A stretch of 28,111 nt of DNA from a virus. The notes under the pieces are model-generated. The model was given only the letters and a program-made list of their open reading frames with translations. It did not search any database and was not told the DNA's origin. The stretch covers positions 1 through 28,111 of IMG/VR virus record IMGVR_UViG_3300033993_001227. One strand, written 5' to 3'. Of this stretch, positions 7,682 to 15,856 are shown in pieces; position 1 is the first letter of the stretch; every line of letters begins with the position of its first letter. Both the position numbers and the translations under genes were made by a program.

Positions 7682-9189
7682 TGACGTTAACTTTTGGAAG
7701 TTTGTTTGCTGGTGTCGGCGGGTTCGACATGGGTTTCGAACAGGCAGGATTTCAGTGTAAGTTTCAGGTCGAATGGGACAAGAACTGTCGCTCGGTGCTG
7801 GATCGTCACTGGCCCGATGTAGAGAAATGGGGCGATATCAGTAATGTCAACGGTCGTTTCCTGCCACCAGTTGACTGCATTATTTTCGGCAGCCCATGCC
7901 AAGACCTATCCGTTGCCGGTAAACGAGCAGGGCTAGAAGGCGAACGATCAGGTTTATTTCACGAAGCAGTACGAATCATAAAGGAGATGAGAGATGCAAC
8001 CAATGGAACTTTTCCCCGATGGACAGTCTGGGAGAACGTCGCAGGAGCTTTGTCCTCAAACAACGGACGAGATTTTGGGACAGTCGTCAATGAAATGGCT
8101 GAAGCAGGGGCGGTTGTCCAAGAATACGCTGTGTTGGACGCGCAATACTTTTCTGTACCCCAGCGACGGGTCCGCGTGTTCCTCGTCTCTTGCTTTGATC
8201 CTGCAACAGCCGAAAGATGTCCCGACCCGCTACTACCTGTCACCGAAAGCGTGCGAGGGGATACTAAGAAGGGCAAACAAAAGAGGCAAAGTGCTGCCAG
8301 AACGCTTACAGAAGGCACTGGAGGCGATGGTGGGATCGTCAACGCCATCGGAGCCAGCATCTACCACAAATCAACCGTCGTAAATCAGGACGTGAACTGC
8401 GGTCATCTTGTAACCGAAGGTGCAATACTCGGTTCCGATGTTGTTGGATCGCTCAACACTTCCGACGCAAAAATGATTAGTAACCAGTATGTGAACGAAA
8501 ACAAATGTGTTGTCGAACCATACGTGAAATCTCGTCGCGCTCAATCTGCTGATGATGACGAAACCTGGATCGAAGGCAAAGTAAACCCGACACTCAACTC
8601 ATTTGATGTTGGTGATACACGCACAACAACAGCAGTATTAGAGCCGGTGCTATTCGAGAACTCGTACCGTGATGGGGCAAGGATTGCCCACGATGGCGTG
8701 ACACAGACCCTCACCTCAAAAATGGGGACAGGCGGCGGGAACACACCCATGATTGCTATGCCAATACAAGATGGACGGGAAATCGAGAAACATCAAAACG
8801 GTTTCGGTGTTGCTTCCGATGGAGAACCTTCATACACGTTGGATCAGACCGGCGCACAAGCCGTAGCGTATTCGGTGCGTGAGGACGCTAAAGCAAACAC
8901 GTTTAGTGCCACCGAATTGGATCATGCGAACGCGTTGTCAGCGTTGCGTCCATCACCACAGTCTCATCACGCCCAAATGTTTATTGCTCAACCAATGGCG
9001 GTTAGGCGGCTCACCCCTATCGAGTGTGAAAAATTACAAGGCTGGCCGGTGGATCACACACGTTGGAAAGCTGACGGAACAGAGATGGCTGACACTCACC
9101 GCTATCGTATGATAGGCAACGGTGTCGCTTCCCCAGTAGCGAAATGGGTAGCCGAACAAATAGCAAAGGTCGAATATGCCGAAGGGTGA
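7681..9189 (+). CDS. C5-cytosine DNA methyltransferase with long repetitive recognition region
   Basis: All core C5-methyltransferase motifs are present in order: SLFAGVGGFDMGF (I, residues 7-19), FGSPCQDLSV with catalytic C73 (IV), WENV with E118 (VI), QRRVRVFLV (VIII, 161-169), RRLTPIECEKLQGWP (IX, ~441-455) and MIGNGVASPVAKWV (X, ~476-489). The enzyme methylates cytosine at carbon 5 in a specific sequence. The recognition region (~180-440) is unusually long and made of degenerate repeats of the type T-L-x(4-6)-G-x-G-G. No cognate restriction nuclease is adjacent, so it is probably an orphan modifying phage DNA against host defence. Start ATG overlaps the previous stop by one base. Confidence 0.93.
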   Translation: MTLTFGSLFAGVGGFDMGFEQAGFQCKFQVEWDKNCRSVLDRHWPDVEKWGDISNVNGRFLPPVDCIIFGSPCQDLSVAGKRAGLEGERSGLFHEAVRIIKEMRDATNGTFPRWTVWENVAGALSSNNGRDFGTVVNEMAEAGAVVQEYAVLDAQYFSVPQRRVRVFLVSCFDPATAERCPDPLLPVTESVRGDTKKGKQKRQSAARTLTEGTGGDGGIVNAIGASIYHKSTVVNQDVNCGHLVTEGAILGSDVVGSLNTSDAKMISNQYVNENKCVVEPYVKSRRAQSADDDETWIEGKVNPTLNSFDVGDTRTTTAVLEPVLFENSYRDGARIAHDGVTQTLTSKMGTGGGNTPMIAMPIQDGREIEKHQNGFGVASDGEPSYTLDQTGAQAVAYSVREDAKANTFSATELDHANALSALRPSPQSHHAQMFIAQPMAVRRLTPIECEKLQGWPVDHTRWKADGTEMADTHRYRMIGNGVASPVAKWVAEQIAKVEYAEG

Positions 9190-9301
9190 ACATTGGTCTT
9201 GTCCGCGCTGCCAACAGCGAATGATTACTCACCTTCCGATAGTGGAACCGCCAACGTGTAGTAACAAACATAAACCGATCCCGATGGTGCAAATAAAATA
9301 A
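9176..9301 (+). CDS. Zinc-ribbon miniprotein (41 aa)
   Basis: This frame begins at an ATG inside the last 14 bases of the methyltransferase gene and ends at TAA 9299-9301. The product, beginning MPKGEHWSCPRC, has CPRC near its start, then a Cys (residue 28) and a His (32) that could complete a zinc site. It is the last plus-strand gene before the convergent junction. No family is recognised. Small CxxC proteins are a recurring theme in this window, which raises its credibility. Confidence 0.55.
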   Translation: MPKGEHWSCPRCQQRMITHLPIVEPPTCSNKHKPIPMVQIK

Positions 9302-9302
9302 A

Positions 9303-9345
9303 GGGACCGCCTCAACCCGTCGGGGTAGAGCGGGGAGGCGATCCC
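9303..9345 (-). terminator. Rho-independent terminator of the minus-strand operon
   Basis: GGGACCGCCTC (9303-9313) pairs with GAGGCGATCCC (9335-9345), eleven positions with one mismatch. A small inner ACCC/GGGT hairpin lies at 9315-9326. On the minus strand the stem is followed by TTTATTTTATTT (complement of 9291-9302), as in intrinsic terminators. No T tract follows on the plus strand, so it should act mainly on leftward transcripts. Confidence 0.75.
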
Positions 9346-9351
9346 AATGGC

Positions 9352-9398
9352 GGCAACACGGTCACGGGTAGGTAACCCGCAAGCGTTTTAATGTTGCC
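9352..9398 (-). other. Structured 3' untranslated segment of the minus-strand operon
   Basis: Between the last minus-strand stop (9409) and the terminator, GGCAACA (9352-9358) can pair with TGTTGCC (9392-9398), enclosing a second perfect hairpin CGGGT-AGGTA-ACCCG (9365-9379). It could stabilise the transcript's 3' end or be a processing site. No coding frame is convincing here. Confidence 0.4.
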
Positions 9399-9408
9399 TT
9401 ACCGCTGT

Positions 9409-9645
9409 TTAGACTATCTGTAAAACACTCACCCCAACGAACCCGCTCCCGATAATGGCAGCGTTCGCGCTCTCGACGTTGGCAAAGAGATACCAGAACC
9501 GTTCCGATGTCGTGAATGTCTGCCCATTCCAACGGTGAGGCCCGGCCCACGTTTTGCCGTCTCGGTCACGAACCAACACCCAACGACTAGCCGACGGTCG
9601 AGTCTGGCGCGACGTGTAACGTCGCCATAGAATACCTAACCTCAC
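9409..9645 (-). CDS. Small hypothetical protein, last gene of minus-strand operon (78 aa)
   Basis: The GTG start at 9645 overlaps the stop of the preceding gene as GTGA, supporting translational coupling. The product has a basic N-terminus (beginning MRLGILWRRY) and a compact middle, WVLVRDRDGKTWAGPHRWNG, then TSERFWYLFANVESANAA and a short hydrophobic end. The W-V-L-V-R-D-R-D-G pattern and C-terminal helix look like a small alpha/beta fold. No family is recognised. Confidence 0.6.
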   Translation of the reverse strand: MRLGILWRRYTSRQTRPSASRWVLVRDRDGKTWAGPHRWNGQTFTTSERFWYLFANVESANAAIIGSGFVGVSVLQIV

Positions 9646-9998
9646 GCGATAGTCGCCAGTACTTGTATTCCCTCAGCCGTGATATGGCACACTTGCTGCT
9701 CGACACCGGCACTAGAGATACGTGTCTTGCCGTTCGGCTTGATATAACCCGCCTGGCGTAGCTCACTGCACCGCTTCCAATAGCAACACTTCGGGAGCAA
9801 CGCGAGGCCACTTGCGCGACCCGCCTCCTCGTCCGTGAGGTACTGCTCACTAAAGTAGGTGGCTAAGAGTTTGGCGCGTTGTGATCCGGCCCTGACCGTC
9901 ATAGCTTTAGCACCCCCCGTCGAGGTTGCCCCGTCGTTGCGGCGTACACCCAACCAACCGTTAGCGTGACCGATAGCGGCCCACTCGTCGTAGTTCAT
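9642..9998 (-). CDS. Winged-helix DNA-binding protein
   Basis: The ATG at 9998 overlaps the preceding gene's stop (ATGA). The 118-residue protein has an N-terminal ~30-residue extension with WAAIGHANGWLGVRR, then a winged-helix-like region: GSQRAKLLATYF, LTDEEAGRASGL, YWKRCSELRQAGYI (probable recognition helix) and KTRISSAGVEQQVCHITAEG as the wing. This pattern (L-T-D-x-E-A, K-R-x-S-E-L-R-x-x-G-x-I, T-R-x-S-x-x-G) recurs in phage HTH proteins linked to replication or regulation. It is the clearest DNA-binding candidate in the minus-strand block. Confidence 0.75.
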   Translation of the reverse strand: MNYDEWAAIGHANGWLGVRRNDGATSTGGAKAMTVRAGSQRAKLLATYFSEQYLTDEEAGRASGLALLPKCCYWKRCSELRQAGYIKPNGKTRISSAGVEQQVCHITAEGIQVLATIA

Positions 9999-10129
9999 TG
10001 ACTACCCCCTAACAAGTACGTGGCAACACTCCTACCCTTGTCATACCAGACAATAAACGGCTCGGCATAGTGCGCCGTAATGTCTAGCCGATATTCGATA
10101 ACCCCATGAATAAATGCGCGTAATCTCAT
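9995..10129 (-). CDS. Hypothetical 44-residue protein
   Basis: ATG at 10129 overlaps the upstream stop by four bases (ATGA), has GGAGG five bases upstream, and its own stop overlaps the next ATG in the same way. This double coupling strongly supports a real gene despite the size. The product begins MRLRAFIHGVIEY and includes AEPFIVWYDKGRSV, suggesting a small beta-rich fold. No function is recognised. Confidence 0.65.
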   Translation of the reverse strand: MRLRAFIHGVIEYRLDITAHYAEPFIVWYDKGRSVATYLLGGSQ

Positions 10130-10308
10130 TGTGCCTCCTCACATTCCACCTCAACGTCAATAAACATTTCGGTATCGTCCATACCTAGTTGCTCCGCTAT
10201 TTGCTGCAAGCCCATACGTTCGGCCTGCTCCTCATTCTCGGCGTACACGTGTGTCGTGACTACGCATAGATCGGATACCGCCGTAATGCGGTGCATTAGA
10301 TCACTCAT
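10126..10308 (-). CDS. Hypothetical acidic protein (60 aa)
   Basis: The ATG at 10308 overlaps the preceding stop (ATGA). The product starts MSDLMHRITAVSDLCVVTTH, then VYAENEEQAERMGLQQIAEQ and an acidic end with FIDVEVECEEAQ. The beta-hairpin, helix, beta order with A-x-N-E-E-Q-A is a common layout of small phage proteins of unknown role. It could be a host-protein inhibitor or DNA mimic given its acidity, but that is only a guess. Confidence 0.65.
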   Translation of the reverse strand: MSDLMHRITAVSDLCVVTTHVYAENEEQAERMGLQQIAEQLGMDDTEMFIDVEVECEEAQ

Positions 10309-10652
10309 GCCGTCACCTCCGGCGTGAACGTCAATTCAGTGACACCTAACTCCGATATCACGTCAAGCGGCCTGCAAGCGTCAGTCGGGTAATCACCCCA
10401 CGACATACCGCCCGATATGACATAATCCTTGCCCTCAATTCTAAGCAAGGTCGTCTCCCGTGAGTCGCCATACACCCATGACAAGTCCTCGATAGCTTGC
10501 GCCAGATAATCTGCCTGGTCGTCGTCGTCGATCTCGTCACCGTAGTTGTAGGCCGCACCGATCACGGCGTTGCTAAGTGTCTTTAGTCGTGCCTCCGCAA
10601 CGTGATAATCCACGTGCCTCGCGCATATTCCAATAGTCATATCTGCACCCAT
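10305..10652 (-). CDS. Hypothetical acidic protein (115 aa)
   Basis: The ATG at 10652 lies seven bases after GGGAGGGG, so it is preferred over the internal ATG at 10640. The product is acidic, with EIDDDDQADYLAQAIEDLSWVY, RIEGKDYVISGGMSWGDYPTD and a C-terminal TELTFTPEV strand. The GGMSWGDYPTDA segment is a turn-rich motif seen in small actinophage proteins of unknown function. The gene is preceded by a 96-base structured leader, and its stop overlaps the next ATG. Confidence 0.75.
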   Translation of the reverse strand: MGADMTIGICARHVDYHVAEARLKTLSNAVIGAAYNYGDEIDDDDQADYLAQAIEDLSWVYGDSRETTLLRIEGKDYVISGGMSWGDYPTDACRPLDVISELGVTELTFTPEVTA

Positions 10653-10748
10653 AAATAGACCCCTCCCAGAGTCGTTGTTACCTCACGTTGAGGTAGTCCC
10701 CGTTGCGGATCGAACCGCCACGCCCAACGGCGACGGGGGAATAGCTAT
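10653..10748 (-). promoter_or_regulatory. Structured leader RNA A (three-way junction plus hairpin plus RBS block)
   Basis: Nothing codes between the stop at 10749 and the ATG at 10652. In minus-strand order the gap holds a three-way junction (10740-10697: outer TCCCC(C)GT/ACGGGGA, arms CGCC-GTTG-GGCG and GCGG-TTCGAT-CCGC), a perfect hairpin TACCTCA-ACG-TGAGGTA (10695-10679), then CTCTGGGAGGGG (10671-10660) and the start codon. The same order occurs at 11548-11450. A riboswitch-like or protein-bound leader is possible. The folds are by eye. Confidence 0.55.
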
Positions 10749-11129
10749 TCAGTCGTTATGGCAAGCCTCACAAATAAGCAACGTGCCGCTATTGGTTATC
10801 ACCTCATACTCCGCGTCGTTGCCGGTGTCACAATTCTCACACTGCTTGACTACTTGACTAGGGGTAGGTAACTTGCCGGGATAACGGCCATATTTTTCAG
10901 ATACCAAAATACCGTACAGATTACGTTCGCTATCACTCCAGTCGTCGAACGTGTCGTGATCCTCCGCGCTCCAGTCGGTAGTGTCAATAAGCACCAACGT
11001 TCGAGCGTCGCCGAACGTACCGCTATCAGTATCGAGCCATAACACGGCAGGACGATAGTCGTTCATTGGGTCATGGAATTGTGGCAGCACCCTGATCCAC
11101 TCATTGAGTATGTTCGCGTCGGTACTCAT
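10749..11129 (-). CDS. Hypothetical zinc-binding protein (126 aa)
   Basis: The frame extends to 11141, but the ATG at 11129 overlaps the preceding TAA (TAATG) and has GGAGG just upstream. The acidic N-terminal ~95 residues begin MSTDANILNEWIRVLPQF and include AVLWLDTDSGTFGDARTLVL and a NLYGILVSEKYGRYPG stretch. The C-terminus has CENC and CEAC (about residues 96-123), a four-cysteine zinc ribbon. No family is recognised. Confidence 0.75.
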   Translation of the reverse strand: MSTDANILNEWIRVLPQFHDPMNDYRPAVLWLDTDSGTFGDARTLVLIDTTDWSAEDHDTFDDWSDSERNLYGILVSEKYGRYPGKLPTPSQVVKQCENCDTGNDAEYEVITNSGTLLICEACHND

Positions 11130-11449
11130 TACGCCCTCCAACGTGGATAGTCACGGATCACGGCAGGGCCGTTTATGACTACTACCCTCGACGATAAGCC
11201 CGCACGTTCACTATCAGTAATCTCGAACGTATCGAAAAATATCGCCGCGTCACAGTCACCCTCCAAAAATACGCGGGTATTTAGCACGTATGAAAACACG
11301 CTAATCCCGTCGCCGCCATGTTCCTTGTCTGCCTGATCCGCTTGACGGGCCGCCCATAGTGGCACTTGTAGCCACTCATGCCCACTATCAGTGAACCAAC
11401 GGCACTCCGCCAACCACTCCGCCCTATCTGCCTGAATAATTGTATTCAT
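11129..11449 (-). CDS. Hypothetical protein (106 aa)
   Basis: ATG at 11449 follows the ribosome site GGGAGGGG by eight bases. The product begins MNTIIQADRAEWLAECRW, then WLQVPLWAARQADQADKE, and ends in a strand-rich segment VVVINGPAVIRDYPRW. It is acidic with many Trp residues. No domain is recognised. The gene is preceded by leader RNA B and coupled to the next gene by TAATG. Confidence 0.7.
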   Translation of the reverse strand: MNTIIQADRAEWLAECRWFTDSGHEWLQVPLWAARQADQADKEHGGDGISVFSYVLNTRVFLEGDCDAAIFFDTFEITDSERAGLSSRVVVINGPAVIRDYPRWRA

Positions 11450-11548
11450 AATGTCGTCCCCTCCCAGAGACGTAACCTCGACACCTTGCCGAGATAGCTC
11501 CCGCGCCCGTCATGATCGGGCCGCCCCCTACGGGGTACGGGATACTTA
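11450..11548 (-). promoter_or_regulatory. Structured leader RNA B, equivalent of leader A
   Basis: This 99-base gap between two minus-strand genes contains, in transcript order, a three-way junction at 11542-11499 (outer TCCCG/CGGGA, arms CCCC-GTA-GGGG and GCCCG-ATCATGA-CGGGC), a hairpin ATCTCG/CGAGGT (11495-11475, one G-U pair), and CTCTGGGAGGGG (11469-11458) before the ATG at 11449. The last block is identical to that of leader A; the stems differ in sequence but keep pairing. Confidence 0.55.
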
Positions 11549-11725
11549 CTACCAACCGCGCTTGTTTATTTGCTCCCGTCGTCGCTCCACTATCTCGCGG
11601 GTATGTCTGGCACGTTCAGCCGGGGTTGGCCTGCGGTCAAGCCAACGAACTAGCACCCACGTCCCCCACAATGGGGAGCAAAGTAGCAACGCCCCTGCAC
11701 CAATGGCTAACAATTCTCTAATCAC
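11549..11725 (-). CDS. Small membrane protein with basic cytoplasmic tail (58 aa)
   Basis: A GTG at 11725 overlaps the preceding stop (GTGA), with GGAGGG directly upstream. The product begins MIRELLAIGAGALLLCSPLW: a hydrophobic helix of about 20 residues continuing through GTWVLVRW, followed by a strongly basic tail (DRRPTPAERARHTREIVERR). This is a single-pass protein, probably with the basic tail inside the cell. The cysteine after LLL is not a good lipobox. The role is unknown; small early membrane proteins often alter host envelope or exclude other phages. Confidence 0.65.
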   Translation of the reverse strand: MIRELLAIGAGALLLCSPLWGTWVLVRWLDRRPTPAERARHTREIVERRREQINKRGW

Positions 11726-11964
11726 CCCTCCACCCCCTCAAGAATTGCCGTGTTCATTCCTAACGAGCTAACACGCGGATCAAAATAGTCAATGATCCGC
11801 TCCACCGTCCACGCCTCACCCATATCAGGATCGAACGCGCCCGCCTGATCGAGATAACGTTTAGCACGTTCGGCTGCCACACGGATCGCCTCCGCCTCAC
11901 TATCCCCCAACCCAATGACCGCATAATACGTGTCAATTTGGGCGACATAATAAACCTGGCTCAT
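11722..11964 (-). CDS. Hypothetical protein (80 aa)
   Basis: ATG at 11964 overlaps the upstream stop (ATGA). The product starts MSQVYYVAQIDTYYAVIGLG and continues with a helix AEAIRVAAERAKRYLDQAG, then EAWTVERIIDYFDPRVS. The strand-helix-strand pattern with G-D-S-E-A-E-A-I resembles other short proteins of this operon (for example that at 13519-13734), hinting at shared ancestry. No function is recognised. Confidence 0.7.
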   Translation of the reverse strand: MSQVYYVAQIDTYYAVIGLGDSEAEAIRVAAERAKRYLDQAGAFDPDMGEAWTVERIIDYFDPRVSSLGMNTAILEGVEG

Positions 11965-12254
11965 GATCTAGCCTCCGCGAACCGTTTAGCGTCGATAGCC
12001 TCCAACGCCATGAGGTGATCGCGCCACGCGTTACCGCTAACCGCTATCGGAGCGGGAGTGTGATCCACCTCCAACGGCAACGGATCACGGGTTAGCACGT
12101 CGAACGCCTCACGCCTGCACCTCCCCGCATATGCCTGCCACACCTCGCCCATAGGATCAGGGCCGCAAGCCTTAGAATTACGCTCCGCCCGCTTAGCCTC
12201 CGCCTCATGCGCCTTAGCCCATGCCGTGAGGTTCACTTGCTTACGTCGCGCCAT
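11961..12254 (-). CDS. Hypothetical basic/helical protein (97 aa)
   Basis: ATG at 12254 overlaps the preceding TAA. The N-terminal half is basic and helical (beginning MARRKQVNLTAWAKAHEAEA, then KRAERNSK) and the rest contains GEVWQAYAGRCRREAFDVLT and an EVDHTPAPIAVSG segment. It could bind nucleic acid, but no motif is decisive. Its position inside a tightly coupled run of genes supports it as real. Confidence 0.65.
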   Translation of the reverse strand: MARRKQVNLTAWAKAHEAEAKRAERNSKACGPDPMGEVWQAYAGRCRREAFDVLTRDPLPLEVDHTPAPIAVSGNAWRDHLMALEAIDAKRFAEARS

Positions 12255-12409
12255 TATCTACCTCCGAACGCGTCGAGAATATCCCGCAACATGTCGGCGG
12301 GAGTGTCGTTCTCATGTTTAGCCGCATGACACGGGAGGCAGATATTGCCGGGAAACATATCCAACGGGGCAACGTCCACCCCGCAAGCCGTACAGGTGAG
12401 GCTATCCAT
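12254..12409 (-). CDS. Zinc-ribbon miniprotein (51 aa)
   Basis: The frame extends upstream to 12559, but that part overlaps the well-supported neighbour; the ATG at 12409 shares a base with that gene's TAA (TAATG), so it is taken as the start. The product has CTAC and CLPC spaced 20 residues apart (C6, C9, C25, C28), with a further His near the second pair, a classic four-Cys zinc ribbon with HNH-like spacing. A helical acidic tail follows (ADMLRDILDAFGG). It is probably an adaptor or DNA/protein-binding module. Confidence 0.65.
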   Translation of the reverse strand: MDSLTCTACGVDVAPLDMFPGNICLPCHAAKHENDTPADMLRDILDAFGGR

Positions 12410-12705
12410 TACGCACCAACCTTTACCGCGTCCACACACACACCAACCGCCCCGCCGTCGATCATGCTTGACACCCAATGCCCGCCCCAACCCGCACGAC
12501 GAACATACTCCGCAATAGCTACCGCGTAATTCTCGCCGATACTCAATGAATAATCCCATGACACGGTAACTACGTGAGGGTCACGCCCGTATATGTTCGC
12601 CTCATAACGGCTTACCTTGATACGGCTGCCCCTGTGATTAGTCACGGGCAGATACTTAGCGCGTAACGTAACGCGGTAAGTTTCCGATACTGATAACAAT
12701 TCCAT
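12409..12705 (-). CDS. Hypothetical protein, first gene of the distal minus-strand unit (98 aa)
   Basis: The frame opens at 12735, but the ATG at 12705 carries the ribosome block AAGGGGTAATC immediately upstream, identical to that before the gene at 13734. The product begins MELLSVSETYRVTLRAKYLP and has a strand-rich core (RIKVSRYEANIYG, VVTVSWDYSLSIG) and a helix (YAVAIAEYVRRAG) before a Gly-rich end. No family is recognised. It is the first gene after a strong promoter, so it is likely highly expressed early. Confidence 0.7.
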   Translation of the reverse strand: MELLSVSETYRVTLRAKYLPVTNHRGSRIKVSRYEANIYGRDPHVVTVSWDYSLSIGENYAVAIAEYVRRAGWGGHWVSSMIDGGAVGVCVDAVKVGA

Positions 12706-12756
12706 GATTACCCCTTTATATTGTGAACGGGTCACGCCTCCGCGCCCGTAATAGTG

Positions 12757-12785
12757 AGATTATCCCAACTATCGCCCCGTGTCAA
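12757..12785 (-). promoter_or_regulatory. Sigma-70-type promoter for the distal minus-strand unit
   Basis: On the minus strand TTGACA (complement of 12780-12785) and TAATCT (complement of 12757-12762) are separated by exactly 17 bases. The start of transcription near 12750 gives a ~45-base leader with an ACGGG/CCCGT hairpin before the ATG at 12705. The segment GCTTGACACGGGG is identical to that in the promoter at 13801-13829. Confidence 0.75.
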
Positions 12786-12820
12786 GCCATGAACCTGATC
12801 GCCCCCTACGGGGTCACGGG
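12776..12820 (-). repeat. Third three-way-junction element (C), overlapping the promoter
   Basis: In minus-strand order: outer stem CCCGTG (12820-12815) with CACGGG (12781-12776); arm CCCC-GTA-GGGG (12813-12803); arm TCAGG-TTCATGG-CTTGA (12798-12782, one G-U). It shares the 14 bases ACCCCGTAGGGGGC exactly with element B. Its 3' side contains the -35 box, so it could act as DNA, or as RNA in read-through transcripts from 13801. Confidence 0.45.
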
Positions 12821-12837
12821 TAACCGCTAACTATTTT

Positions 12838-13005
12838 TTATGCGCTCCAAGTGTCGCCAATTTCGAGGGGGTTATCACACTCCCCGCAATACTCCCCGCA
12901 CTCACAGTCCCGCGCCGGGCCGCCACAGTAAGGGCATGACCCGCCAACGACAACGGGCAACAATACCCGAACCTCATTACACGTATTACAGTACGCCTCG
13001 ATCAT
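12838..13005 (-). CDS. Multi-cysteine zinc-binding miniprotein (55 aa)
   Basis: ATG at 13005 overlaps the stop of the upstream gene (ATGA) and the frame ends at TAA 12838-12840. The product carries nine cysteines in CNTC, CPYC, CEC and CGEC arrangements over residues 6-43, enough for two zinc sites. It begins MIEAYCNTCNEVRVLLPVVV and ends DNPLEIGDTWSA. The doubled ribbon suggests a protein- or nucleic-acid-binding module. It is too short for routine calling but well supported by overlap and cysteine spacing. Confidence 0.65.
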   Translation of the reverse strand: MIEAYCNTCNEVRVLLPVVVGGSCPYCGGPARDCECGEYCGECDNPLEIGDTWSA

Positions 13006-13151
13006 GCCCGCCCCCTCCGCATAATCTCCAACTCATGCGCGTCGTCGAGACACTCATTACACTCACCCTCACGGTTCATGCGTGACGCGTCCCAATGGAT
13101 CGGGCAAATAGGAACTAGATCACCGTCGTAGTTCATAACGTCTACCCTCAT
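13002..13151 (-). CDS. Small zinc-binding protein (49 or 44 aa)
   Basis: Two in-frame ATGs compete. The one at 13151 overlaps the previous stop (ATGA), as elsewhere in this operon; the one at 13136 has GAGGG eight bases upstream. The shared product has CPIH and CNEC (about residues 16-34 from the longer start), a likely CCHC zinc site, in an acidic context (REGECNECLDDAHELEIM). Its stop overlaps the next gene's ATG. No function is recognised. Confidence 0.6.
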   Translation of the reverse strand: MRVDVMNYDGDLVPICPIHWDASRMNREGECNECLDDAHELEIMRRGRA

Positions 13152-13516
13152 GAGATCGCCCCACACTCACACTTGGAAACGTCCTCAACAACATAGCCAC
13201 AATACGGGCAAGCCTGATCTATTTCGTCCCATACCCAACCCCACGAACCGATCGGGAACACCTCAACACCGTTCACCATATGACCCGCCAACGCTTGCCA
13301 ACCCGTCCCGTCCTCAAATTGGATAACACCGTCTAACACACGGTAACCGATCTCCATTTCGTCCTGATCCTTAGCCATATGCTCCAACATGCGGAGACAC
13401 TCACCCAACGGAAACGACGGGCAAGCCCAACCGTTCCACCTCGACGACGGAATATGAACACCCGCATACGACGTTTCACCGTCGTCGTAACTGAACCTTG
13501 TAGCAACGTAATCCAT
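13148..13516 (-). CDS. Hypothetical protein with C-terminal zinc ribbon (122 aa)
   Basis: The product begins MDYVATRFSYDDGETSYAG and continues VHIPSSRWNGWACPSFPLG, a strand-rich, Trp-rich domain, then a helix LRMLEHMAKDQ and a region IQFEDGTGWQALAGHMVNGV. The C-terminus holds CPYCGYVVEDVSKCECG, a zinc ribbon. The overall layout (small globular domain plus Cys tail) recurs in actinophage accessory proteins of unknown function. The ATG at 13516 follows a G-rich ribosome site, two bases after the upstream stop. Confidence 0.75.
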   Translation of the reverse strand: MDYVATRFSYDDGETSYAGVHIPSSRWNGWACPSFPLGECLRMLEHMAKDQDEMEIGYRVLDGVIQFEDGTGWQALAGHMVNGVEVFPIGSWGWVWDEIDQACPYCGYVVEDVSKCECGAIS

Positions 13517-13518
13517 GA

Positions 13519-13734
13519 TTATTTTCCCCCCGTCAAAATACCCAATTCATGACCCTCACGAACAACAACAAAATACGACTTCCATTCATTGTTGCCTAAA
13601 TAATTTTCCCACGTATTCACCGCCATATCGTTCGCCTCCGCCTCACAACTAAACGAACCGATTACCTCAACACCCCAACAATTAGCGGGCGTGTCGAAGT
13701 CACCGAACCCCTCGATAACAATATATTTCTCCAT
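13519..13734 (-). CDS. Hypothetical protein, first gene of the minus-strand block (71 aa)
   Basis: ATG at 13734 is preceded by AAGGGGTAATC, the same block as before 12705. The product begins MEKYIVIEGFGDFDTPANCW, then GVEVIGSFSCEAEANDMAVN, and ends SYFVVVREGHELGILTGG. The strand-helix-strand order and the S-x-E-A-E-A helix resemble the protein at 11722-11964. It follows a near-consensus promoter directly and is probably an immediate-early product. No function is recognised. Confidence 0.75.
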   Translation of the reverse strand: MEKYIVIEGFGDFDTPANCWGVEVIGSFSCEAEANDMAVNTWENYLGNNEWKSYFVVVREGHELGILTGGK

Positions 13735-13794
13735 GATTACCCCTTATTTAGTAGCCCGTACCGCTACGGGATCGCCCTAACCAATTAGCGCGAC
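13735..13794 (-). promoter_or_regulatory. Structured 5' leader of the proximal minus-strand unit
   Basis: The expected ~60-base leader contains a perfect hairpin CCCGTA-GCGG-TACGGG (13771-13756 in minus order) and a small CTAA-TTGG-TTAG hairpin just upstream, then AAGGGGTAATC before the ATG. It matches the leader at 12706-12750 only in the final block. Confidence 0.45.
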
Positions 13795-13800
13795 ACACAC

Positions 13801-13829
13801 AATATACAGACACAATGCCCCCGTGTCAA
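13801..13829 (-). promoter_or_regulatory. Strong sigma-70-type promoter for the minus-strand block
   Basis: On the minus strand, TTGACA (complement of 13824-13829) and TATATT (complement of 13801-13806) are 17 bases apart, close to the ideal. It drives leftward transcription starting near 13794 into the gene at 13734. Confidence 0.8.
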
Positions 13830-13848
13830 GCAACAAAATACCGCCCTA

Positions 13849-13908
13849 CAGATCGGCAGCCACTATCACTAAACGAGATCGGCAACTATCACTAAACGAG
13901 ATAGGCGG
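13849..13908. repeat. Iteron-like direct repeats
   Basis: ACTATCACTAAACGAGAT occurs at 13862-13879 and again exactly at 13885-13902, a 23-base period. Each copy is followed by CGGC or AGGC, and a partial third copy (GATCGGC) precedes the first. The repeats lie directly upstream of the minus-strand promoter, so they could be operator sites or replication iterons. Confidence 0.65.
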
Positions 13909-13929
13909 ATCACCTAGCTTGTTACTCAT

Positions 13930-13951
13930 GGGTAAGTTACCCGGCGGTAAC
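13930..13951. repeat. Overlapping palindromes with three GGTAA half-sites
   Basis: GGGTAA-G-TTACCC (13930-13942) and GTTACC-CGGC-GGTAAC (13936-13951) share their middle arm, so only one hairpin or one protein dimer could use it at a time. This is typical of a regulatory operator. GGTAAC-like sites also occur at 9371-9377 and 12819-12824. Confidence 0.5.
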
Positions 13952-14334
13952 ATAGCTCACGGTGGGTGGGGGTGGGGTCACGGTGAGTGAGAACGCGGTA
14001 AGTAGTCGATCGGTCACGTACCGCAACCCGGCGAACACACGTTCGGCAGCCACACGGCAGGCGGGGGTATGCCGAGACGCGTGGGGGTATAGATATATAT
14101 ATGGGTGTGTCTCTGTGTGTGGTTTTGTGACCACTCTGAGTGGTGGGGTGTGTGGTTGTGCGGCTCCACCTTGGGAGGTGGGTTTGGGGTTGTTGGTGGT
14201 CGAGTTGATATTCACATACGTGTGTGTATCTTTCTACCAGTGGGTTAGGGATGTGTGTTGCTCCCCCCACGGTTCGCTCTCTGTGAGCAGGTCGCCGTAG
14301 CTAGTTTCTTTTAGCCGACACCTTGTTTGGTGAG
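13952..14334 (+). other. Non-coding G/T-rich control region
   Basis: The plus strand is strikingly rich in G and T (for example around 13960-13980 and 14101-14200) and no frame gives a credible protein. It contains two near-identical GGGGGTAT blocks (14063-14070, 14083-14090), an AT run at 14088-14102, and two perfect hairpins: ACCACTC-T-GAGTGGT (14130-14144) and CCACCT-TGGG-AGGTGG (14166-14181). It may hold an origin, a packaging site or a late-operon control region. Confidence 0.5.
14205..14232 (+). promoter_or_regulatory. Candidate plus-strand promoter
   Basis: TTGATA (14205-14210) and TATCTT (14227-14232) are 16 bases apart and would start transcription near 14239, toward the methyltransferase-terminase operon. 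The match is fair but not strong. Confidence 0.35.
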
Positions 14335-14469
14335 ATGACGTTCACCGCGCTGCTTGAACCAGTAAATAGTTCATCGACCCAGGTTCCCCTGTTTATGCCC
14401 CGCCACCTGCAAACGTGGTACAGCCATGAAGATTGCTTCGTGTGCCGTCATCCCGACGGGTGTGCGTAG
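14335..14469 (+). CDS. Possible small Cys/His protein (44 aa)
   Basis: An ATG at 14335 opens a 44-codon frame ending at TAG 14467-14469. The product begins MTFTALLEPV and ends with CFVCRHPDGCA preceded by H31, a compact Cys/His cluster that could bind zinc. The amino-acid make-up looks protein-like, unlike the flanking G/T-rich sequence. The ribosome site is weak (TTGGTGAG) and there is no coupling to a neighbour, so it may be spurious. Confidence 0.4.
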   Translation: MTFTALLEPVNSSSTQVPLFMPRHLQTWYSHEDCFVCRHPDGCA

Positions 14470-14568
14470 AGTGTAGCAGATGAAATCAGTGTTGGTGGAT
14501 GTGAGGAGGACCGGAGCCATCCAGTTCATTTAAGTGCTGTTGCTCTACGGCACACCCACCAACGTGTG

Positions 14569-14574
14569 TATAGT
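14569..14574 (+). promoter_or_regulatory. Possible -10 box for a leaderless methyltransferase transcript
   Basis: TATAGT lies seven bases before the ATG at 14582, so transcription would begin at or next to the start codon. There is no Shine-Dalgarno sequence before that ATG. No good -35 box is seen at the normal distance. Confidence 0.35.
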
Positions 14575-14581
14575 AGCAGTT

Positions 14582-15856
14582 ATGAGGGATGTAAATTTGT
14601 TGCTTGGTGATTGTCGTGACCGGCTCAAAGAACTACCAGACAACTCGATTGACAGCATTGTGACTGACCCACCGTATGAGCTTGGGTTTATGGGTAAGAG
14701 TTGGGATGCGTCGGGTGTGGCTTATGACGTGAGGGTGTGGCAGGAATGTTTGCGCGTGTTGAAACCTGGTGGACACATGCTCGCTTTTTCAGGTTCACGC
14801 ACATATCACCGCATGGCTTGCGCTATCGAGGATGCAGGGTTTCAGATTCGTGACCAGATTATGTGGGTGTATGGCTCAGGGTTTCCAAAGTCGTTGAATA
14901 TCAGTAAAGCGATTGACAAGGCTGCTGGTGCAGAGCGTGAGGTTGTTGGTAGTTATGAAACACACGACATTCGTAACGCAGGTCTGATGGATCGCAAAGG
15001 TTCAATGATGGTTGATGTGACTGCCCCTGCTACGGCTGAGGCTAAAGAGTGGGATGGTTGGGGTACAGCGTTGAAGCCTGCGCATGAGCCGATTGTGTTG
15101 GCTCGCAAGCCGTTGGTGGGGACTGTCGCTAACAATGTTTTGACGTATGGTGTTGGCGGGTTGAACATTGACGGATGCAGAGTCGCCCACCAATCAGAAG
15201 AAGATAGAGCGAGTGCAACACCTCAAGGAAAAGTAACTAGCAACAAAATGGCTGGTTCAGCACCTGATGTTTACGATGCAGGAAGAGTGGACGTTGACAG
15301 ACCTGACACAGCACTTGGTCGTTTCCCTGCGAACTTCATTCATGACGGATCGGACGAAGTATTAGAACTATTCCCTGACACTAAGGGTGGAACATGGAAC
15401 ACCACTAAAGGCGCACGACATTTCAACAATGATGGTGAGCCAACAGGGTATGCAACTTCTAAATCTGATAGTTCAACGGGTTCTGCTTCACGGTTCTTTT
15501 ATTGTGCTAAAGCCAGCAAGAAGGATCGCAACGAAGGCTTAGATGGATTTTCCGAGGTTCGTTCTGGCGGTATGTCTGCAACGATTGAGGGTTCAATGCT
15601 TACTGGTAGTGGAAACCAACGAACAACAACCAATAAAAACCATCACCCAACGGTTAAACCAACAGACCTCATGCGCTACCTGTGCAGACTGATAACCCCA
15701 CCAAACGGCACAGTCCTTGACCCATTTACAGGTTCCGGTTCAACAGGTAAAGCAGCTGTGCTGGAAGGATTTAGTTTCATTGGTGTTGAACAGTCAGAAG
15801 AATATATTGCGATTGCAGAAGCTCGTATAAAGTCTGTGTATGACAGCGGGGCGTAG
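14582..15856 (+). CDS. Beta-class DNA methyltransferase (adenine-N6 or cytosine-N4)
   Basis: The frame opens at 14534, but the ATG at 14582 gives MRDVNLLLGDCRDRLKELPD, the normal start of this family. TDPPYELGFMGKSW (D29-P-P-Y32) is the catalytic motif. LKPGGHMLAFSGSRTYHRM follows, and DPFTGSGSTGKAA (~379-391), the AdoMet-binding motif, comes last: motif IV before motif I is the beta-class order. Between them, after EPIVLARKPL, lies a long recognition insert including GRFPANFIHDGS and FFYCAKASKKDRNEG, typical of phage enzymes of this type. The base modified cannot be read from the sequence. No restriction partner is nearby. The 3' end overlaps terminase by 17 bases. Confidence 0.9.
   Translation: MRDVNLLLGDCRDRLKELPDNSIDSIVTDPPYELGFMGKSWDASGVAYDVRVWQECLRVLKPGGHMLAFSGSRTYHRMACAIEDAGFQIRDQIMWVYGSGFPKSLNISKAIDKAAGAEREVVGSYETHDIRNAGLMDRKGSMMVDVTAPATAEAKEWDGWGTALKPAHEPIVLARKPLVGTVANNVLTYGVGGLNIDGCRVAHQSEEDRASATPQGKVTSNKMAGSAPDVYDAGRVDVDRPDTALGRFPANFIHDGSDEVLELFPDTKGGTWNTTKGARHFNNDGEPTGYATSKSDSSTGSASRFFYCAKASKKDRNEGLDGFSEVRSGGMSATIEGSMLTGSGNQRTTTNKNHHPTVKPTDLMRYLCRLITPPNGTVLDPFTGSGSTGKAAVLEGFSFIGVEQSEEYIAIAEARIKSVYDSGA

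Follow-up and report, generated by a model that had tools for sequence, protein, structure and literature searches.

Judged by comparison among related phages, the three-armed element that recurs in the small-gene operon of this virus is a real, conserved RNA structure without a name. The DNA analyzed (the window, 28,111 nt in full) is a viral metagenome contig bearing a minus-strand operon of tiny genes at ~9.4–13.7 kb. By gene call, adjacent genes in this operon overlap or abut everywhere but in three places, where they lie 96, 99, and 132 nt apart. These are its only internal gaps of at least 60 nt, and each holds one junction element, termed E1, E2, and E3 (Table 1). A sequence-only reading had placed the three segments in non-coding gaps of one operon and had drawn in each a pair of hairpins enclosed by an outer stem; both statements were borne out at the coordinates given, the latter on the minus strand. 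Its account of the layout captured the three-way junction (3WJ) but not what follows it: the junction is the 5′ domain of a longer structure, a leader that fills the entire gap. This leader runs from the upstream stop codon through ~6 nt, the 3WJ, the P4 hairpin, and a Shine-Dalgarno (SD) hairpin to the start codon in E1 and E2; in the E3 variant, the 3WJ and P4 are followed by a P5 hairpin, a plain SD, and the start codon.

Table 1. Features of the three leaders, in window coordinates.
Feature	Position	Strand	Basis and remarks
E1 three-way junction, subtype III	10697..10740	minus	Fold, −22.9 kcal/mol; P1 CCCCGU/ACGGGG, P2 CGCC/GGCG, P3 GCGG/CCGC with loop UUCGAU
E1 leader, P4 hairpin, UACCUCAACGUGAGGUA	10679..10695	minus	Fold; near-identical hairpin after E2-type junction in L019
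E1 leader, SD hairpin, GACUC-UGGGAG-GGGUC	10658..10673	minus	Ribosome site in loop; ATG at 10652
E2 three-way junction, subtype I	11499..11542	minus	Fold, −24.0 kcal/mol; model R1, 68.8 bits (E2 sequence itself in training set)
E2 leader, P4 hairpin	11475..11495	minus	Fold; helix 4 covariation in alignment A7
E2 leader, SD hairpin, CGUCUC-UGGGAG-GGGACG	11455..11472	minus	Fold; ATG at 11449
E3 three-way junction, subtype II	12776..12820	minus	Fold, −20.0 kcal/mol; models R1, R2
E3 leader, P4 hairpin, subtype II, GGGAUAAUCUC core	12751..12772	minus	Subtype II comparison, R2, sequence
E3 leader, P5 hairpin, GGAG in loop	12727..12749	minus	Subtype II comparison, R2, sequence
E3 leader, unstructured SD, AAAGGGG	12711..12717	minus	Sequence; ATG at 12705
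Promoter-like site, TTGACA-17-TAATCT	12757..12785	minus	Overlaps P3/P1 and P4 of E3 leader

Folding energy by itself is too weak a proof of these elements. The earlier expectation that the segments would fold better than shuffled controls holds modestly: against dinucleotide shuffles, the z-scores are −1.55 (E1), −1.27 (E2), and −1.95 (E3), but 5–10% of shuffles are equally stable. At such scores (−1.3 to −1.95), energy could not settle the matter, and comparison with relatives was needed. A loose descriptor of the junction finds four further matches in the window. Whole-gap z-scores are −1.99, −2.84, and −2.68 for E1, E2, and E3, respectively. The E1 and E3 junctions were kept in the MFE structure in every genomic context tested and that of E2 in three out of four; on the plus strand, the E3 junction does not form. 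Folding the whole E3 gap alone brings out a competing pairing. Two other candidates were discarded: loop–loop pairing between P2 and P3 shows no consistent complementarity by eye, and tRNA mimicry was rejected because ARAGORN finds no tRNA or tmRNA in the window.

Relatives were collected by scans with the operon proteins and the terminase, which gave ~90 loci, and element copies were sought with nhmmer and then with a covariance model, R1, built from 14 E2-like sequences (alignment A2, in which one terminal base of the L029 element is incorrect). Together, these located copies in more than 30 related viral contigs, including phages whose terminase is only ~85–87% identical in protein sequence. 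The three copies in the window are indeed related, as the sequence-only reading had it, yet each represents a subtype of its own, and the family they form is not uniform. E3 is intermediate in sequence between subtypes I and II and is matched by R1 with E = 3.9e-6. With filters off, the top three R1 matches in the operon are E2 (6.8e-14), E3 (1.7e-8), and E1 (0.019); E1, a divergent subtype, is reached only under this setting. A second model, R2, built from subtype II with E3 excluded, matches E3 at 12723–12821 (E = 3.6e-11) and several subtype I leaders weakly. Among the 65 same-strand gaps of 60–200 nt in element-bearing relatives, 39 are occupied according to an automatic list, and about 12 more by eye, these being unlisted duplicate contigs or divergent junctions (L032, L039, L051, L078). 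Most of the remaining gaps in this size range resemble either first-gene promoter leaders or gaps that were miscalled.

How far the family extends was gauged with patterns. A 20-nt degenerate pattern matched 110 viral contigs, many by chance, and only good R1 scorers were used; among the matches listed on genome contigs, the same pattern gave chance-looking ones. When 2.9 million viral contigs were scanned with more specific patterns, subtypes II and III were each recovered in nine contigs. Because most of these contigs were already in hand, the RNA family seems restricted to the present phage lineage, so far as exact patterns can show. INPHARED phages matched neither the operon nor the E3 gap at the DNA level and gave only remote protein matches; the lineage carrying the elements is known here from metagenome contigs alone.

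The strongest evidence for a selected RNA structure comes from base-pair changes among these relatives, which for subtype I were counted in alignments A5 and A7 from sequences taken directly from the loci. In this subtype, 23 distinct junctions were compared: standard pairs fill 99.1% of pair cells, both sides have changed at 10 of 15 pairs, and the covariation score is 0.470, compared to 0.142 in shuffled alignments and at most 0.100 when pairing partners are slid. When P4 is included (26 sequences, A7), pairing holds in 97.8% of cells; double-change cells total 103, compared to 38.6 for shuffles and no more than 13 for slid controls. In subtype II (12 sequences, A9), 96.7% are paired, and double-change cells number 22 versus 4.5 in shuffles. 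The seven relatives of E1 (subtype III) retain pairing in 97.9% of homologous pair cells with little variation. Covariation is strong in two of the three subtypes and thin in the third. The compensating stem differences noticed among the three copies, and the selection on structure read from them, are therefore much strengthened by the covariation of subtypes I and II: among relatives, the fold is kept while the letters change. Loss of both covariation and gap conservation, which had been named as the outcome that would count against the elements, is clearly not what the relatives display; both are present.

The kind of non-Watson-Crick pair tolerated also bears on which nucleic acid is under selection. 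In homologous pairs read on the operon strand, G-U exceeds A-C by 54:12 and 30:1, counts in which many cells share ancestry, and this excess favors transcribed operon-strand RNA over a DNA cruciform. Together with the fixed stop and start spacing, it makes it very unlikely that the elements act at the DNA level as cruciforms, operators, or recombination joints that enable small genes to be shuffled, even though near-identical islands lie between unrelated genes (96–98% around E1 in L004 and L007) and subtype II has a promoter-like geometry. A recombination joint, moreover, needs no covarying stems.

The distance from the stop codon to P1 has a median of 6 nt (range 5–17) in subtypes I and II. 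P1 ends 41–51 nt before the start codon in most leaders of subtype I and 67–72 nt before it in those of subtype II. The SD hairpins present a GGGAG core in the loop on stems that vary (CGUCUC/GGGACG, GACUC/GGGUC, UGAUCC/GGGUCA, AACAUC/GGUGUU). Such a hairpin occurs in 24 of 30 leaders, whereas its frequency is 114 of 554 at other SD-bearing starts and 20% in shuffles; it is absent from subtype II leaders and some subtype I leaders. Further SD-in-loop hairpins on varied stems, such as ACACU-UGGG-AGAGUGU, AUAGA-UGGGAG-UCUAU, and CUGAA-UGGGAG-UUCAG, were seen in upstream gaps of L016, L038, L049, L051, L053, L065, and L070, several of them in junction-free leaders. The gaps of the more distant relatives L013, L014, and L015 hold a different recurrent structured leader that starts with a CTTAAGACAGG motif. 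At the other end of the E1 leader, a small inverted repeat at ~10738–10752 runs across the upstream stop codon or abuts it; L004, L007, and L093 have one in the same place before their E1-type junctions (AGCGAUUACUGAUCGCU or GAAUAGCUAUUC); this is possibly an extra hairpin, P0.

Some unpaired bases are conserved across relatives as well, namely UCAY in the P3 loop and those beside P2; they suggest a tertiary contact or a recognizing factor. Since these invariant bases go beyond what pairing needs, and since the elements recur before different genes, one might picture a single regulon of binding sites for a phage or host protein acting as translational operators, or a ligand switch. This we consider unlikely: there is no candidate protein or ligand, and the long-range helix that sequesters the SD in the E3 gap fold, the alternative state found there, was rejected as not conserved in relatives by inspection.

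The subtype II leaders have one further property. In all 14, a TTGACA-like hexamer precedes TANNNT by 17–18 nt and overlaps P3/P1 and P4. The consensus scan does not call the site in E3 because its −10 element is weak; from its sequence, it is a possible internal promoter within the leader. The same scan calls the operon promoter, TTGACA-17-TATATT, at 13829–13801. There, at 13735–13830, the promoter is followed by a first-gene leader with the hairpin CCCGUA-GCGG-UACGGG, whose GNGG loop is like that of subtype II P5; the first-gene leaders of L004 and L019 are similar, and L086 and L089 show a P5-like hairpin with GGAGG in its loop. Adjoining the operon promoter, GCCACTATCACTAAACGAGATCG is present as two tandem 23-bp copies, 91% identical (13859–13904), a possible operator. 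A non-coding stretch at 14488–14564, which precedes a methyltransferase gene and the terminase, is 97–100% identical in L004 and L009–L011 and has long inverted ends, GTTGGTGG..CCACCAAC (z = −3.0 on the plus strand, −3.5 on the minus strand); it may be a site for packaging or regulation, or an origin.

The leaders are assembled from exchangeable parts. Junction types, P4/P5 modules, and neighboring genes have been reshuffled among phages: L019 and L087 carry an E1-type junction in front of a subtype II P4/P5, and L019 also has an E2-type junction followed by an E1-type P4. In L004 and L007, the island of ~83 nt around E1 is 96–98% identical while one or both flanks do not align. Of 68 element pairs that link different phages at 90% identity or more, 49 differ in at least one neighboring gene family and 18 in both; only 19 share both.

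This portability, the position of the junction ~6 nt behind the upstream stop in all subtypes, and its compact, almost loop-free fold would also suit an element of mRNA processing or stability, which would protect the upstream 3′ end or be cut to separate gene blocks. In phage T7, RNase III sites between early genes form several structured intercistronic elements in one operon, a likeness to the present leaders, although the folds differ. The helices here are short for RNase III (P1 plus P2 is ~10–14 bp), and such a role would not explain why an SD hairpin accompanies the junction or why the start codon lies at a fixed distance; we regard it as doubtful. The put RNAs of phage HK022, two hairpins near early promoters that suppress downstream transcription termination in cis, provide a second precedent: they too are compact cis-acting RNA structures of a phage, found in early transcripts, whereas the leaders combine a junction and SD modules between genes. 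That structured RNAs recur in an early-type phage operon is in keeping with attenuators or antiterminators of this sort, yet no U-tract follows the junctions, and none of the five terminator-like sites in 10400–14000 (2.7 expected) is a junction, one of them being the E1 SD hairpin. We think this explanation highly improbable.

In line with the sequence-only reading, which could name no RNA family of this layout, none was matched in two Rfam scans. Rfam 15 on window positions 9000–14600, at E up to 5, returned only a chance MS2 hairpin elsewhere (E = 2.8), and on six relatives, at E up to 2, no match. In the parts of the literature drawn on here, the nearest known features are the SAS and ESAS of actinobacteriophages, described from cluster K mycobacteriophages (PMC3203893) and cluster EF Microbacterium phages (PMC7302621). 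There, copies of SAS mark the starts of some of the non-structural genes, drawn from different families, its function is given as unknown, and the ribosome-binding site lies inside the conserved element, often with an inverted repeat just upstream (PMC3203893; PMC7302621). ESAS of cluster K is a 17-bp imperfect inverted repeat with a 4–13 bp spacer, upstream of SAS (PMC3203893). The GGG and CCC of SAS can, on our own reading, close a hairpin around the SD. Like SAS as described in those parts, the leaders are repeated, associated with starts, and placed before a subset of non-structural genes. However, where ESAS has its inverted repeat, the leaders have the 3WJ and P4, which covary, vary in sequence, and begin near the upstream stop, and the SAS and ESAS descriptions in those parts contain no junction. 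The 13-bp SAS consensuses GGGATAGGAGCCC and GGGAAAGGACCCC had 0 and 4 matches with up to three mismatches, not above chance and none at the leaders.

Given position, SD hairpin, and portability, a cis-acting leader for de novo translation initiation is the best-supported reading. The leader RNA probably controls translation of each following gene. That the elements are modular intercistronic leaders from which each gene block starts translation independently has, in our estimate, about an even chance, its mechanism being inferred. Where translational coupling of overlapping genes ends, the leader would fold in the read-through mRNA, seal the untranslated gap directly behind the terminating ribosome, and display the following ribosome-binding site in the loop of a defined hairpin. 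Wherever it moved, each gene block would thereby take along a controlled translation start of its own; in subtype II, as in E3, the embedded weak promoter may supply an additional transcription start. The genes downstream of the elements gave no common function, and no binding factor was identified. More tentatively, the elements might be portable intercistronic RNAs of a new regulatory class, in which a shared phage or host factor reads the junction and coordinates the shuffled small genes post-transcriptionally as a single regulon.

The alignments suffice to build a new RNA family absent from Rfam. Natural module swaps, strong covariation, and a clear multi-domain structure make its function directly testable by reporters. 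For the phages themselves, the leaders suggest how shuffled small genes may be kept expressed: by giving each block a structured leader of its own.
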